The notes beneath the pieces were generated by a model. That model did no database searches, was not told the origin of the DNA, and saw nothing but the letters and a program-made list of their open reading frames with translations. Positions 51,556 through 64,000 of a stretch of 64,000 nucleotides of DNA are shown here, one piece after another (within the stretch, counting starts at the first letter, position 1; each line of letters begins with the position of its first letter). The position numbers and the translations under genes are program-made. This DNA is from Motilibacter rhizosphaerae (GTDB taxonomy: Bacteria > Actinomycetota > Actinomycetes > Motilibacterales > Motilibacteraceae): assembly GCF_004216915.1 (NCBI RefSeq), contig NZ_SGXD01000007.1, forward strand, positions 1 through 64,000, given 5' to 3'.

Positions 51556-51912
51556 CTAGTCCCACTCGAGGCCGCCGCGCCGCCACACGTAGGCGTAGGC
51601 GACGAAGACCGTGGCGATGAACAGGACCATCTCCACGAGCCCGAAGATCCCGAGGCTGTCGAAGGTCACGGCCCAGGGGTACAGGAAGATGATCTCGATG
51701 TCGAAGAGGATGAAGAGCATCGCGGTGAGGAAGTACTTCACCGGGAAGCGGCCGCCGCCCACGGGCTGCGGCGTCGGCTCGATGCCGCACTCGTAGGCCT
51801 CCGCCTTCGCGCGGTTGTAGCGCGCGGGACCGGAGAGCACGCCCGAGACGAGCGAGAACACGCCGAAGCCGAAGGAGATCGCCCCGAGCCAGGCGATGGG
51901 CACCCAGTTCAT
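51556..51912 (-). CDS. nuoA: NADH-quinone oxidoreductase subunit A
   Basis: 118 residues, three membrane helices; landmarks YNRAKAEAYECGIEPTPQP and FPVKYFLTAMLFILFDIEIIFLYPWAV (TMH1-2 loop Cys and the DIEIIF signature). ATG preceded by AAGGAG. First gene of the 14-gene nuo operon; 152 nt below menJ, so read-through from menJ is possible. Confidence 0.97.
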   Translation of the reverse strand: MNWVPIAWLGAISFGFGVFSLVSGVLSGPARYNRAKAEAYECGIEPTPQPVGGGRFPVKYFLTAMLFILFDIEIIFLYPWAVTFDSLGIFGLVEMVLFIATVFVAYAYVWRRGGLEWD

Positions 51913-52064: not shown

Positions 52065-53327
52065 TCACGCGCGGGGGACCACCTTCTGGAGCCCGTTGAT
52101 GAGCCGGTCGATGGCGTCCCCGCCGCGCGGGTCCGTGAGGTTGGCGAGCAGCTTGAGGGTGAACTGCATGAGCAGCGGGTGGGTCAGGCCGCGCTCGCTC
52201 GCGACCCGCATGACGCGCGGGTCGCTGATGAGCCGCACGAACATCCGCCCGAGCGTGAAGTAGCCGCCCCACTGCTCCTTCAGCGCCTGCGGGTACGCCG
52301 CCAGCGCCCGCTCGCGCTGCGCGCCCGAGGGACGCGCGAGCGCCTGGGCGACGACGTCCGCGGCGAGAGCGCCGGACTCCATGGCGTACGCGATGCCCTC
52401 GCCGTTGAACGGGTTGACCATGCCACCCGCGTCGCCGACGAGCAGCAGGCCGTCGGCGTAGTGCGGCGTGCGGTTGAAGCCCATGGGGAGGGCGGCGCCG
52501 CGCACGGGACCGACCTGGGAGTCCTCGGTGAAGCCGTACTCCGGCGGGAGCGCGGCGAGCCAGCGGCGCAGCACGTCGCGGCTGTCGACCTTGCCCCCGC
52601 CCTGCGCGGCGTTGAGGATGCCCAGCCCGACGTTGCTCGTGCCGTCGCCCATGCCGAAGATCCAGCCGTAGCCGGGCAGGAGCTTGCCGTCCTCGCGCAG
52701 CTCCAGCCAGGACTCCAGCCAGTCGTCCCGGTCGTTGCGGCTCGTGTAGTAGGCGCGCACCGCCACGGCCATCGGGCGGTCCTCGCGCACACGGCGGCCG
52801 ACGGCGAGCGAGAGGCGCGAGGAGTTCCCGTCGGCCGCGATGACGACCGGGGCGCGCACCTCGAGCGGCTCGCCCTCGCTGCCCTTGGCGGTCACGCCGA
52901 CGACGGCGCCCGTGCGCTCGTCGCGGACGGGACCCGTGACAGTGGTGCGCTCGGAGAGCCGGGCGCCCGCCTTCTGCGCGTGGCGGGCGAGCATCTCGTC
53001 GAAGTCGTCGCGCCGGCGCACGAGGCCGTAGTCGGGGTACGCCGCGAGCTCGGGCCAGCGCAGCTCGAGCCGGTGGCCGCCGCCGAGGATCCGCAGGCCC
53101 TTGTTGCGCAGCCAGCCCGCCTCGGGCGAGGTGTCGATGCCGAGCTTGACCAGCTGGGCGACCGCGCGCGGGGTGAGCCCGTCGCCGCAGACCTTCTCGC
53201 GGGGGAAGGCGCTCTTCTCGAGCAGCACGACGTCGAGGCCGGCACGCGCGAGGTGCGCGGCGGTCGTCGAGCCACCAGGGCCGGCGCCGACGACGACGAC
53301 GTCCGCCTCGGTCGTGCCCTCCGCCAC
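52065..53327 (-). CDS. menJ: Geranylgeranyl reductase family protein, probable menaquinone reductase MenJ
   Basis: 420 residues, FAD-dependent. N-terminal Rossmann motif VVVVGAGPGGSTTAAHLARAGLDVVLLEK, the PxxYxW-like loop, FPREKVCGDGLTPRAV, and the second flavin motif GLLLVGDAGGMVNPFNGEGIAYAMESG. MenJ saturates one isoprene unit of menaquinone. GTG start (AEGTTEADVVVVG) has AGGAGG 9 nt upstream. The neighbours (nuo, prenyl synthase, menG, isochorismate synthase) support a menaquinone role rather than archaeal-type lipid reduction. A Rex-like operator lies in its leader. Confidence 0.9.
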   Translation of the reverse strand: MAEGTTEADVVVVGAGPGGSTTAAHLARAGLDVVLLEKSAFPREKVCGDGLTPRAVAQLVKLGIDTSPEAGWLRNKGLRILGGGHRLELRWPELAAYPDYGLVRRRDDFDEMLARHAQKAGARLSERTTVTGPVRDERTGAVVGVTAKGSEGEPLEVRAPVVIAADGNSSRLSLAVGRRVREDRPMAVAVRAYYTSRNDRDDWLESWLELREDGKLLPGYGWIFGMGDGTSNVGLGILNAAQGGGKVDSRDVLRRWLAALPPEYGFTEDSQVGPVRGAALPMGFNRTPHYADGLLLVGDAGGMVNPFNGEGIAYAMESGALAADVVAQALARPSGAQRERALAAYPQALKEQWGGYFTLGRMFVRLISDPRVMRVASERGLTHPLLMQFTLKLLANLTDPRGGDAIDRLINGLQKVVPRA

Positions 53328-53366
53328 CGCCGCCCACCTCCTCGTGCACGCTGCCGCTGGAGGCGC

Positions 53367-53384
53367 TTGTGAAGTCCTTCACGA
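53367..53384. promoter_or_regulatory. Near-consensus Rex operator in the menJ leader
   Basis: TTGTGAAGTCCTTCACGA matches the Rex consensus TTGTGAAnnnnTTCACAA at 13 of 14 fixed positions. The dyad extends further: GGCGCT before and AGCGCC after are also complementary. A menJ -10 (TAGACT, 53399-53404, minus) puts the site just downstream of the start of transcription, where a bound repressor would block elongation. Rex represses respiratory genes when NADH/NAD+ is low; in Streptomyces its known targets include nuo and cyd genes. Confidence 0.6.
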
Positions 53385-53398
53385 GCGCCTGCACCCGC

Positions 53399-53404
53399 AG
53401 TCTA
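53399..53404 (-). promoter_or_regulatory. Candidate -10 of menJ
   Basis: Minus strand TAGACT. It would give a leader of about 64 nt containing the Rex-like dyad. A matching -35 is not clear. Confidence 0.4.
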
Positions 53405-53493
53405 GGCACGTCCTCGCCCGGGCGTCCGCCCCACCCGCCTGTGCGCGGCCTGTGGGTGGGGAGGAGCGTGCGCCGGGAGGGGCCGGCTCCGCA

Positions 53494-53499
53494 TACCGT
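53494..53499 (+). promoter_or_regulatory. Leaderless -10 of the DUF3105 gene
   Basis: TACCGT, then TGTCCC, then GTG. The 6-nt distance implies transcription from the start codon. Confidence 0.45.
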
Positions 53500-53505
53500 T
53501 GTCCC

Positions 53506-54360
53506 GTGTCCACCTCCAGCACCGGCACCGGCCGGTCCGCCGAGCAGCGCCGCAAGCGCGCTGCCGAGCTCCGCGAGCAGCAGCTGCGCGAGGAGCGCCG
53601 TCGTCGCACCACCGCCATCGCCGCCATCGTGGTCGGGGTCCTCGTCGTCGTCGGCGGCGTCGGGGGGCTGATCGCGTACCAGAAGAGCGGCGGCTCGTCG
53701 GCCGGCGGGCAGGTCGTCCCGACGACGCCGACGGGCGCCGTGACGAAGGAGCCGGCGCCGACCCAGGTCAAGGACGACTCCGGGATCCAGGGCGTCCTCG
53801 CCTGGAACACCGGGACGTACCCGGGCACCGGCAGCGACGTCGGCGCGATCGGCCACGACCACGTCGCCGGCCCGGTGCAGTACGCCGTGGTGCCTCCCGT
53901 CGGTGGCCCGCACAACGGGACGTGGATGAACGCCGGCGTCTACACCAAGCCGATCCCGAGCGAGCGGGCCGTGCACAACCTCGAGCACGGCGCGGTCTGG
54001 ATCACCTACCGCCCGGGGCTGGCCGCCTCGGAGGTGTCGGCGCTGCGCACGCTGGTGCACAAGCAGTCGCTGCTCCCCGAGTCGGCCGCGTCCCTGCAGA
54101 GCACGACGAGCAGCTCCAACCGCTTCGTCGACCTCAGCCCGTGGAAGGACGCGAGCCTCCCGAGCCCGATCGTCATCAGCTCCTGGGGCCACCAGCTGCG
54201 CGTGGACTCGGCCAGCGACCCGCGGCTGCAGAAGTTCATCGACACGTTCCGCGTGAGCAAGAAGTACACGCCGGAGTACGGCCCCGCCGTCGACGGCGTC
54301 CCGGTCTCGATCGGCGGGCGGCCCGCGGCCGACGGCGGTTCGCAGCCGAACCCGAACTAG
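53506..54360 (+). CDS. DUF3105 domain membrane-anchored protein
   Basis: 284 residues from GTG. Residues 1-34 are Arg/Glu-rich and cytoplasmic (EQRRKRAAELREQQLREERRRR), a single helix at about 35-57 (TTAIAAIVVGVLVVVGGVGG) and the DUF3105 domain outside. The hallmark AVHNLEHGAVWITYRPG is present, with GPVQYAVVPPVGGPHNGTWMN before it. The function of the family is unknown. It diverges from menJ and ends with a strong terminator. Confidence 0.9.
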   Translation: MSTSSTGTGRSAEQRRKRAAELREQQLREERRRRTTAIAAIVVGVLVVVGGVGGLIAYQKSGGSSAGGQVVPTTPTGAVTKEPAPTQVKDDSGIQGVLAWNTGTYPGTGSDVGAIGHDHVAGPVQYAVVPPVGGPHNGTWMNAGVYTKPIPSERAVHNLEHGAVWITYRPGLAASEVSALRTLVHKQSLLPESAASLQSTTSSSNRFVDLSPWKDASLPSPIVISSWGHQLRVDSASDPRLQKFIDTFRVSKKYTPEYGPAVDGVPVSIGGRPAADGGSQPNPN

Positions 54361-54478: not shown

Positions 54479-54832
54479 GTGATCATGCAGATCTCGGGTC
54501 CTGGTGCGCGGACCGTGGGGTTCAGGGCCTCCAACCTCTCCGTGATCATGCAGATCTTGGCTCCGTTGGCAGGTCGGGTGCGGCGACCGGCCGGGGAGAG
54601 CCAGCAGGCGAGCGCGGGGCGGACACGGGGCTCGCGGGAGAGGGAGCGGGCCGGGGCAGCGGGGACGCGGGTGCAGACGGCGGAGGCGGAGGAGGGCCAC
54701 GAAGCCGAACTCGAGCCGGGTCTGGCCGGGGCAGGGGCGGCGGAGAAGCAGGGCCCCAGCAGGCAAGGCGGCGGAGCGAGAGGCGCGGCAGCGCGGGGCT
54801 GCACCCCTCCCTCGTGATCATGCACAGCTTGG
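54479..54832. repeat. Three copies of the GTGATCATGCA repeat before the HNH nuclease gene
   Basis: Exact cores at 54480-54490, 54542-54552 and 54814-54824, all on the plus orientation. The first two continue as GATCTCGGG/GATCTTGG, the third as CAGCTTGG. They lie in the 571-bp non-coding gap between the DUF3105 terminator and the nuclease promoter. Nothing else in the gap is recognised; 54590-54790 is Gly/Arg-coding-like G-rich sequence without a supported gene. Confidence 0.85.
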
Positions 54833-54931: not shown

Positions 54932-56416
54932 ATGCGTTCGAGTGACGGTCCTGAGCGGGGTGACGGGTTGCCCGTCCGCCCCGTGCCCGGGGTCGTCGCG
55001 CTGCCTGGGCCGGGGCTGCCGTTCGCGCAGGCACTGAAGCAGGTCGCCGTAGGGCCGATGCTGCTGTCGCTGGTGCAGCAGCTGAGTCGTGACGAGGGGC
55101 TGCTGCGGTCGTGGGCGCTGGCGGGGGAACCGGCCGCCGGTGTGGCCGGGTCGAAGGAGGGTCGCCCGGAGGTCGTGGTCCTCGCCGACGCGCGGTTGGC
55201 GCTGGTGCAGGCGTGCGCGCGGGTGGAGGCTGTGGCGGCGGCGGTGAAGGCGGAGCTGGTCGCCTCGGCCTACTCGCAGATCAGCGCCGCCACTGCGGAG
55301 ACAGTGCCGGGTGCGGCTCGGGGTGGTGGTGCGGAGGCGTCCGCGCGGGCGGAGATGGCGCTCGCGCTGCGGATGACCGAGCGCGGTGCCGCCGCGATGG
55401 TGGACGGTGCGCTGCTGCTGACGAGCCGTCATCCGGGTACGCGGTGGCTGCTCGCCGAGGGCCACCTGTCACCTGCCCACGCCCGCGTCGTGGTCGACGA
55501 GGCGTCCGTGCTGGCCGACGAGTTCATCCCGGCACTCGAGGCGGCGGTGCTGCGCCGCGCGCCGGAGCGGACGGTCAGCGAGCTGCGCCGCGACGTGCGC
55601 CGCGCGGTCGCGAAGCTCGACTCCCGCGGCGCGGCGGAACGGCACGCCGACGCCGTCCAGCAGCGCGCCGTCCGCGTCACCCCGCTGCCCGACGGGATGG
55701 CCGAGATCCGCGCCCTGCTCACCGCCGACGAAGCCCAGGTCGTGTCCAGCGCGCTCGACCGGATCGCCCGCGACCTGCCCACCGCCGACCGCGGGTTCGC
55801 CGCGCGAGCCGGGTCCCGCGCCGACGCGCTCGTCGCGGTCTGCTCGGTCCTGCTCGACCCGACCGCCGACGGCGACTTCCTCCCCGCCCTTGCCAGGACG
55901 GCCGCGCCGGTCGCCGTGCAGGTGCAGATCTCCGCCGCCACCCTCCTCGGCCTGACCGAGGACCCCGCCCACCTGACCGGCCACGGCCCGATCCCCGCCG
56001 ACCTCGGCCGCCTGCTCGCCTCCGACGGGACCTGGCAACTCGCCATCACCGACCCCGACGGCAAGCTCCTCGACCTCCACACGCTGCGCTACCAACCCAC
56101 CGCCGCCCAACGAGCACACGTGACCGCGCTGTGGCTGCACTGCGGCCACCCCACCTGCTCCGTACCCGCGGCCCGCTGCGACGTCGACCACACCGTGCCC
56201 TTCAACCACGAAGCTCCAGGCACTGGCGATCCCGACGACCCCGGCGGCGGGCACACCACCTGCCGCAACCTCTGCCCCAGATGCCGGCTCCACCACAACC
56301 TCAAGACCTGGTGGGGCTGGACCACCACCCCCCTCCCCGACGGCACCATCGCCCACCGCACCCCGCTCGGCCGCATCTACGAAGCACGACCAGAACCACA
56401 ACCCTGCGCCGCCTGA
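54932..56416 (+). CDS. DUF222 / HNH endonuclease (13E12 repeat family)
   Basis: 494 residues. Residues about 40-330 form the alpha-helical DUF222 region; a C-terminal zinc HNH nuclease domain follows, with cysteines in HCGHPTCSVPAARCDVDHTV (D419, H420), and NLCPRCRLHHNLKTWWGW. The HNH residues and zinc cysteines look intact, so it is probably an active DNA nuclease. Members of this family are often present in many copies per actinobacterial genome, including as the mycobacterial 13E12 repeat. Target and role are unknown. It is unlinked to any restriction or toxin partner here. Confidence 0.92.
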   Translation: MRSSDGPERGDGLPVRPVPGVVALPGPGLPFAQALKQVAVGPMLLSLVQQLSRDEGLLRSWALAGEPAAGVAGSKEGRPEVVVLADARLALVQACARVEAVAAAVKAELVASAYSQISAATAETVPGAARGGGAEASARAEMALALRMTERGAAAMVDGALLLTSRHPGTRWLLAEGHLSPAHARVVVDEASVLADEFIPALEAAVLRRAPERTVSELRRDVRRAVAKLDSRGAAERHADAVQQRAVRVTPLPDGMAEIRALLTADEAQVVSSALDRIARDLPTADRGFAARAGSRADALVAVCSVLLDPTADGDFLPALARTAAPVAVQVQISAATLLGLTEDPAHLTGHGPIPADLGRLLASDGTWQLAITDPDGKLLDLHTLRYQPTAAQRAHVTALWLHCGHPTCSVPAARCDVDHTVPFNHEAPGTGDPDDPGGGHTTCRNLCPRCRLHHNLKTWWGWTTTPLPDGTIAHRTPLGRIYEARPEPQPCAA

Positions 56417-63068: not shown

Positions 63069-63767
63069 TCACTCCGGGCGGCGGGCCCGGTGCAGGGCGA
63101 CGATCCCGCCGGTGAGGTCGCGCCACTCGACGTCGGTCCAGCCGCTCGCGGCGATCGTGCGGGCGAGCTCCGCCTGCGCGGGCCAGGCGGCGATCGACTC
63201 AGCGAGGTACGCGTAGGCGGGGCCGTTGCTGCCGACCCGCCGGGCCACCCGCGGGAGCGCGCGCATGAGGTAGCCGGAGTACACCGTCCGGAACGGCTTC
63301 CAGGTCGGCGCGCTGAACTCGCACACGACGAGGCGACCGCCCGGGCGCGTCACGCGGAGCAGCTCGCCGAGCGCGGCACCGGTGTCCATGACGTTGCGCA
63401 GCCCGAAGCTGATGGTGACGGCGTCGAACGACGCGTCCGCGAAGGGCAGGTGCAGCGCGTCCGCCGCGACGAACGAGAGCCTGCCGCCCAGCCGACGGGC
63501 CCCGACCTGCAGCATCCCCAGCGAGAAGTCGCCCGCGACGACCTCGGCGCCCGCCTCGGCGAAGGGCAGGGACGACGTGCCGGTCCCGGCGGCGAGGTCG
63601 AGGACCCGCTGGCCCTTGCGCGCGTCGACCGCCCGGCGCACCGCCCCGCGCCAGACGCGGGCCTGGCCGAGGGAGAGCACGTCGTTGGCCAGGTCGTAGC
63701 GCGGGGCCACCTCGTCGAACATCGCCGCGACGGCGTGCGGGTCCTTGTCGAGGTTCGCGCGGCTCAT
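63069..63767 (-). CDS. menG: Demethylmenaquinone methyltransferase
   Basis: SAM-dependent C-methylation, last step of menaquinone synthesis (UbiE/MenG family). 232 residues from ATG ([31 protein letters not shown]). SAM motif I is [16 protein letters not shown]; family motifs [34 protein letters not shown] and [14 protein letters not shown] are present. It diverges from the isochorismate synthase gene, 42 nt away. Confidence 0.94.
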
Positions 63768-63797
63768 GGTCGGACAGCCTGCCACGCGCGTACGCCG

Positions 63798-63803
63798 TAG
63801 GCT
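63798..63803 (+). promoter_or_regulatory. Leaderless -10 of the isochorismate synthase gene
   Basis: TAGGCT, then CGGTAG, then GTG at 63810. The -10 lies in the short menG-menF divergent gap. Confidence 0.4.
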
Positions 63804-63809
63804 CGGTAG

Positions 63810-64000
63810 GTGACCACCGCCCCCCTGCCGGAGCCGCTCGTGGCCCGCACGGAGGCCGTCGCCGACCCGGGCGCGCTGCTCGCGACGCTCCCCGAGCACG
63901 GCCCGCTCGCCTGGGTGCGCGAGGAGGACGGCCTGGTCGGCTGGGGCGAGGCGGCACGGCTGGTCGTGCGCGGCGCGGGTCGCTTCCTCGAGGCCGAGCA
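63810..64000 (+). CDS. menF: Isochorismate synthase, MenF-like (5' part only)
   Basis: The first 63 codons are inside the window; the gene runs off the right edge. GTG start, reading [20 protein letters not shown] and then [19 protein letters not shown], the N-terminal signature of chorismate-binding isochorismate synthases. It makes isochorismate, the first intermediate of classical menaquinone synthesis. Together with menG in divergent orientation it supports the classical rather than the futalosine pathway. Confidence 0.75.

Follow-up and report, generated by a model that had tools for sequence, protein, structure and literature searches.

A predicted Rex operator ahead of a menJ-like gene and the nuo genes in Motilibacter rhizosphaerae and its relatives

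A palindromic 18-mer lies just upstream of a menJ-like gene and the complex I (nuo) genes of Motilibacter rhizosphaerae, which raises the question of which regulator reads it. Rex control of nuo has already been published for Streptomyces, where the Rex protein of S. avermitilis footprints on the consensus TTGTGAANNNNTTCACAA and its binding is lowered by NADH (PMC5355995). In the stretch of DNA analysed here (64,000 nucleotides, referred to as the window), the sequence TTGTGAAGTCCTTCACGA occupies positions 53367-53384; in the direction of menJ (minus strand, 53384-53367) it reads TCGTGAAGGACTTCACAA. It was found exactly as described in an earlier sequence-only reading, departing from the Rex consensus at one of 14 fixed positions, namely by a G instead of an A at position 17. 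A pattern scan returned it as the sole match at up to three mismatches in the window and as the sole match at up to two mismatches in the 4.3-Mb genome, where the reversed control pattern gave none. At up to three mismatches the genome held five additional places, compared with one per strand for the reversed pattern. The 18-mer also forms the centre of an imperfect palindrome of 30 bp at 53361-53390, with 14-bp arms and one mismatched pair, a feature absent from the earlier reading. A DUF3105 gene starts at 53506 on the plus strand, 122 bp from the site and running in the opposite direction to menJ.

The gene behind the site (52065-53327, minus strand) encodes a geranylgeranyl reductase family protein that passes the subfamily model TIGR02032 with 275 bits (cut-off 158.8). 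It is followed after a gap of about 150 bp by nuoA (51556-51912, minus strand; NF005922, 200.8 bits, cut-off 155), the first complex I gene past menJ, and additional nuo genes on the same strand were recognised by eye from the reading frames beyond it. On the MenJ model NF045655 the protein scores 247.4 bits, below the cut-off of 700, while three further members of the family encoded by this genome reach 111, 104 and 49 bits, so that it is the best of the MenJ candidates tested. The nuo neighbourhood and a demethylmenaquinone methyltransferase gene at 63069-63833 would fit a role in menaquinone saturation. The earlier proposal that the site links menaquinone maturation and complex I to the NADH/NAD+ ratio is supported insofar as the site heads menJ-nuo. 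The cut-off of the MenJ model was missed, however, and neither the name menJ nor the role in menaquinone maturation that it implies is proven.

The same reading had called for a search for a rex gene in the genome, and one was found about 29 kb past the window, where a single match to the Rex N-terminal domain lies at C7:93094-93234. The encoded protein is a full Rex protein by model score (NF003992, 310 bits, cut-off 226) and by its two domains (PF06971 and PF02629), and it aligns to Thermus Rex across nearly the whole length. The DNA contacts described for T. maritima Rex are Gln46, Arg48, Lys49 and Ser52 (PMC8836258). When these were placed by eye, with the recognition-helix spacing as a guide, Gln46 and Arg48 proved to be retained. 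The base-reading Lys49 is replaced by Arg in this genome and in three members of its family (G001, G002, G003), and is Lys in a fourth (G004), while the contact residue Ser52 is Ala here and Ser in these four relatives (both by eye); the two substitutions in the Rex of this genome count against the Rex reading.

We analysed the conservation of the site in 148 evenly sampled genomes of the class. A match to the menJ-like protein of the window at E <= 1e-100 is present in 89 of them. These 89 genomes hold 93 menJ places, from which 91 stretches were retrieved and scanned; second copies of about 50% identity were left out in G035 and G138, both copies were retained in G064 and G027, and the truncated place G003:C228 was swapped for G003:C1. 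The nuoA gene lies within 500 bp past menJ in 73 loci, is far away in 10 and is unseen in 8, one of which (G003) carries the site on a contig that ends there. A site with at most two mismatches is present ahead of menJ in 71 of the 73 loci in which nuoA is this close, representing 20 of 21 families and 39 of 41 genera; the 71 loci are related by descent and thus non-independent, so that the family counts are the fairer measure. The reversed pattern was not found ahead of menJ in any of the 91 loci, even at up to three mismatches. In G137 and G018 the protein match begins at residue 60-63 and no site lies within 300 bp of the match start; their sites, at 488 and 343 bp, were scored as present in a wider window. 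All five genomes of the family of M. rhizosphaerae carry the site (at most two mismatches) 56-109 bp ahead of the menJ match. That the 18-mer is a chance palindrome is a negligible alternative: shuffled versions of the window (n = 100) gave on average 0.03 matches at up to three mismatches and at least one match in 3 of 100 cases, but its recurrence at this position in 20 families (71 of 73 loci, compared with none of 91 for the reversed pattern) speaks against chance.

The letters of the conserved sites bear on which protein reads them. Information content is high across the 18-mer and drops to a moderate level over roughly 2 bp on each side and to a low level farther out, a profile partly explained by the fact that the sites were selected with the pattern. 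The site in the window carries the commonest base of its relatives at every fixed position, and its sole mismatch to the consensus, a C at position 2 in the menJ reading, occurs in 57% of the genus-weighted sites. The core of a Crp-type site, TGTGA-N6-TCACA, is contained in the Rex consensus, and the site could therefore be read by a cAMP-receptor-like regulator of the Crp/GlxR type instead of Rex. The site in the window matches this core with one mismatch (by eye), and a search for the core alone, which leaves positions 1, 7, 12 and 18 free, again gave a site with at most two mismatches in 71 of 73 loci. However, the inner N6 and the outer bases are not free in the core-found sites, since the genus-weighted frequencies are 85% for T1, 99% for A7, 97% for T12 and 100% for A18. 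Furthermore, rex is present in 88 of the 89 genomes with menJ, and the sole rex-less one (G010) has no site. Reading by a Crp-type regulator is accordingly very improbable. We consider it highly probable that 53367-53384 is a Rex operator of the menJ-nuo transcription unit, as judged from a motif that lies in the leader of a respiratory locus, is kept ahead of menJ-nuo in 71 of 73 loci and is accompanied by a rex gene in the same genome; the earlier claim of a Rex operator is thereby strengthened.

Two of the 73 loci with adjacent menJ and nuoA are devoid of the site. One belongs to G010, which has no rex gene and whose best 18-mer in 900 bp shows six mismatches. Upstream of menJ in this genome (locus L212) the hexamer TAGACT is retained, and TCGTGGATCTCTCACGGT, which lies 12 nt farther on, has by eye the look of a degenerate operator. 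This pattern, seen in one genome, fits a loss of rex followed by decay of the operator; no other genome of the G010 family was in the sample when further rex-less relatives were sought. The second locus belongs to G062, in which rex is present and menJ and nuoA are adjacent; this locus counts against the Rex reading.

The arrangement of the leader is likewise preserved. Toward menJ, the hexamer TAGACT (53404-53399, minus strand), the likely -10 element of the menJ promoter, is followed after 14 nt by the operator, a likely ribosome-binding sequence GAGGAGG (53337-53343, minus strand, by eye) and the GTG start codon at 53327. A scan of 53200-53700 with the consensus sigma-70 pattern detected no promoter, so the promoter call rests on the comparison with relatives. 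Among 72 loci, a TANNNT hexamer ends 10-17 nt ahead of the site in 66, from 18 of 20 families (TAGACT in 32, TACACT in 25, others in 9), while the background was 19 of 1944 8-position windows farther upstream; in the remaining six loci a TANNNT lies 1-9 nt ahead of the site (by eye). The placement of the site just downstream of a menJ -10 element, as proposed earlier, is consequently upheld by the relatives though not by the sigma-70 scan. Transcription commonly starts about 7 nt past a -10 element. If TAGACT is the -10, the operator would thus begin a few bases past the start.

Because the palindrome would lie within the menJ leader, it could also act as an RNA hairpin affecting stability or translation, alone or besides Rex. 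The leader does fold better than shuffled sequences (z -2.95; 2 of 200 shuffles at least as good), the predicted hairpin coincides with the 30-bp palindrome, and the complementarity of the flanks in relatives exceeds the null level at +1 (z 3.2) and, by a small margin, at +2 (z 1.7). From +3 outward, however, complementarity is at the null level, so that the outer arms are kept for only about 2 bp in relatives. In addition, a search of 53000-54000 gave no Rfam family at gathering scores, a scan of 53200-53700 gave no terminator, and the conserved feature consists of the letters of the Rex consensus themselves. A conserved RNA hairpin was rejected since pairing is unsupported beyond +2 of the operator, and we regard a hairpin function, with or without Rex, as very improbable.

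Rex control of menJ-nuo would operate as follows. At a low ratio of NADH to NAD+, a Rex dimer would occupy the palindrome just past the transcription start and block RNA polymerase during or right after initiation; a rise in NADH would release Rex, and the quinone-modifying reductase and complex I would then be made together, so that NADH could be reoxidised. We infer the binding of Rex to the site, the block of RNA polymerase, the cotranscription of menJ and nuo and the role of the enzyme, while the NADH response is presumed for this Rex from the behaviour of studied Rex proteins. The sequence-only reading had regarded the site as an extension of nuo control to menJ; the site does precede menJ, but it is rather the operator of a probable menJ-nuo unit.

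Known systems resemble this arrangement in part. The operator of nuoA1-N1 in S. avermitilis, for which Rex binding, a footprint and de-repression were demonstrated, shares the consensus, a Rex family regulator and the downstream complex I genes with the locus described here, but it lies directly ahead of nuoA at -42 to -16 (PMC5355995), whereas the operator in the window precedes menJ and would lie just past the start if TAGACT is the -10. A position past the start is found at cydA1BCD of S. avermitilis, where the footprint extends from -3 to +25 (PMC5355995); this is a different target, and cydA was not found in the genome of the window. In Actinomyces oris a geranylgeranyl reductase gene (ggr) and ubiE stand beside nuo, and insertions in ggr and in nuo genes form one mutant class, while the available text of that study mentions neither a Rex site nor Rex regulation (PMC5478893). 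The words geranylgeranyl and menaquinone are absent from the main text of PMC5355995, and nuo is not mentioned in the available text of PMC4172946. No report of a Rex site preceding a geranylgeranyl reductase gene appeared in the titles and abstract beginnings of the matches listed, which cover few subscription papers; the menJ-first layout may already be in the RegPrecise collection. Rex and its operator are known, as is the control of nuo by Rex; the extension made here concerns the menJ-first layout and how widely it occurs.

The contrast with Streptomyces was also apparent within our sample. Family f16 has operators that are letter-identical to those of named Streptomyces, and we therefore regard it as Streptomycetaceae. 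Of its 14 loci, 10 showed nuoA; all 10 carry the site shortly ahead of nuoA and none ahead of menJ. Among 80 named loci, only two, both from Actinopolymorpha, carry a site in the 300 bp that precede menJ. The nuoA gene was seen in 52 of the named loci and lies outside the stretch in 28; in 49 of the 52 it is located more than 700 bp past menJ, and each of these 49 carries a site in the 300 bp that precede nuoA. By title, 48 of these 49 are Streptomyces, Streptacidiphilus or Wenjunlia, the exception being Actinobacteria bacterium OV450. The other three of the 52 are the two Actinopolymorpha loci and L060, a locus from a metagenome-assembled genome in which rex is present and menJ and nuoA are adjacent, and in which no site at up to three mismatches was found within 6.2 kb. 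L060 likewise counts against the Rex reading; by eye, however, a menG-like gene appears to end directly ahead of menJ in this locus, and the promoter may therefore be located elsewhere. Since the site stands ahead of menJ when nuoA is near and ahead of nuoA when it is far, the operator appears to go with the promoter that feeds nuo. Judged from its breadth, the menJ-side layout would be older than that of Streptomyces. Two loci of family f14 (L246 of G033 and L249 of G073) carry a perfect site ahead of menJ together with a two-mismatch site ahead of nuoA, possibly a state between the two layouts.

If this reading is correct, Rex governs a quinone-modifying reductase plus complex I in many actinomycete families, in contrast to complex I alone as published for Streptomyces. 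The locus is of interest for how widely the menJ-first layout occurs, for its contrast with Streptomyces and for a possible one-operon regulon. It provides a conserved operator with nearly fixed promoter spacing that is open to testing, a lineage in which the operator would have moved along with the nuo promoter, and a single rex-less genome that is missing the operator and retains the -10-like hexamer.

The size of the regulon was considered next to these findings. The sequence-only reading had suggested a scan for further copies of the motif at genes such as rex and cydAB, and had named a lack of enrichment upstream of respiratory genes as a refutation. The motif is indeed not enriched in the genome, where no further copy at up to two mismatches was found (a single operator need not have one), and the lack of a second site that would point to an active regulon counts against the Rex reading. 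The case consequently rests on the relatives. No site with fewer than seven mismatches is present in the 3.1-kb rex locus of this genome, and the best matches in rex loci of the family have six mismatches in G001, three in G002 and G003, where one half of the site is good, and four in G004. A cydA gene was not found in this genome or its congener G001; it is present in two of the five family genomes (G002 and G004), whose four cydA loci contain nothing with fewer than five mismatches. In G001, too, the menJ site is the sole site at up to two mismatches. Probes with three mismatches were bound more weakly by S. avermitilis Rex than those with one or two (PMC5355995), and the five three-mismatch places in the genome could thus be weak targets. 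A one-operon Rex regulon is therefore possible, given the sole strong site at menJ-nuo, the lack of a site by rex and the missing cydA. The broader proposal that Rex in this genus has been reduced to a one-operon switch for menJ-nuo, with the menJ-side operator being old and the nuoA operator of Streptomyces derived, is one that we consider somewhat less likely than not. NADH would in that case control only the amount of complex I and the tuning of its quinone.

A second Rex-like site was observed in each of three family loci (L030, L031 and L032, at 1501-1518 in each), with one mismatch in G002 and G003 and two in G004; the neighbourhoods in G002 and G003 look alike. Elsewhere in the window, at 54932-56416, a 494-amino-acid frame without an NCBIfam match has an HNH-like cysteine/histidine pattern near its end (by eye). 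Ahead of this gene, GTGATCATGCA occurs three times at 54479-54830, twice followed by GATCT, and has the look of a short dispersed repeat. Finally, the near-palindrome TTGTGATAGC-N2-TCACAA or its reverse-strand form recurs at G062:C1:991179-991196, G098:C1:23109, G143:C1:919046, G040:C3:13190 and G027:C1:2325857, and is perhaps the site of another regulator.
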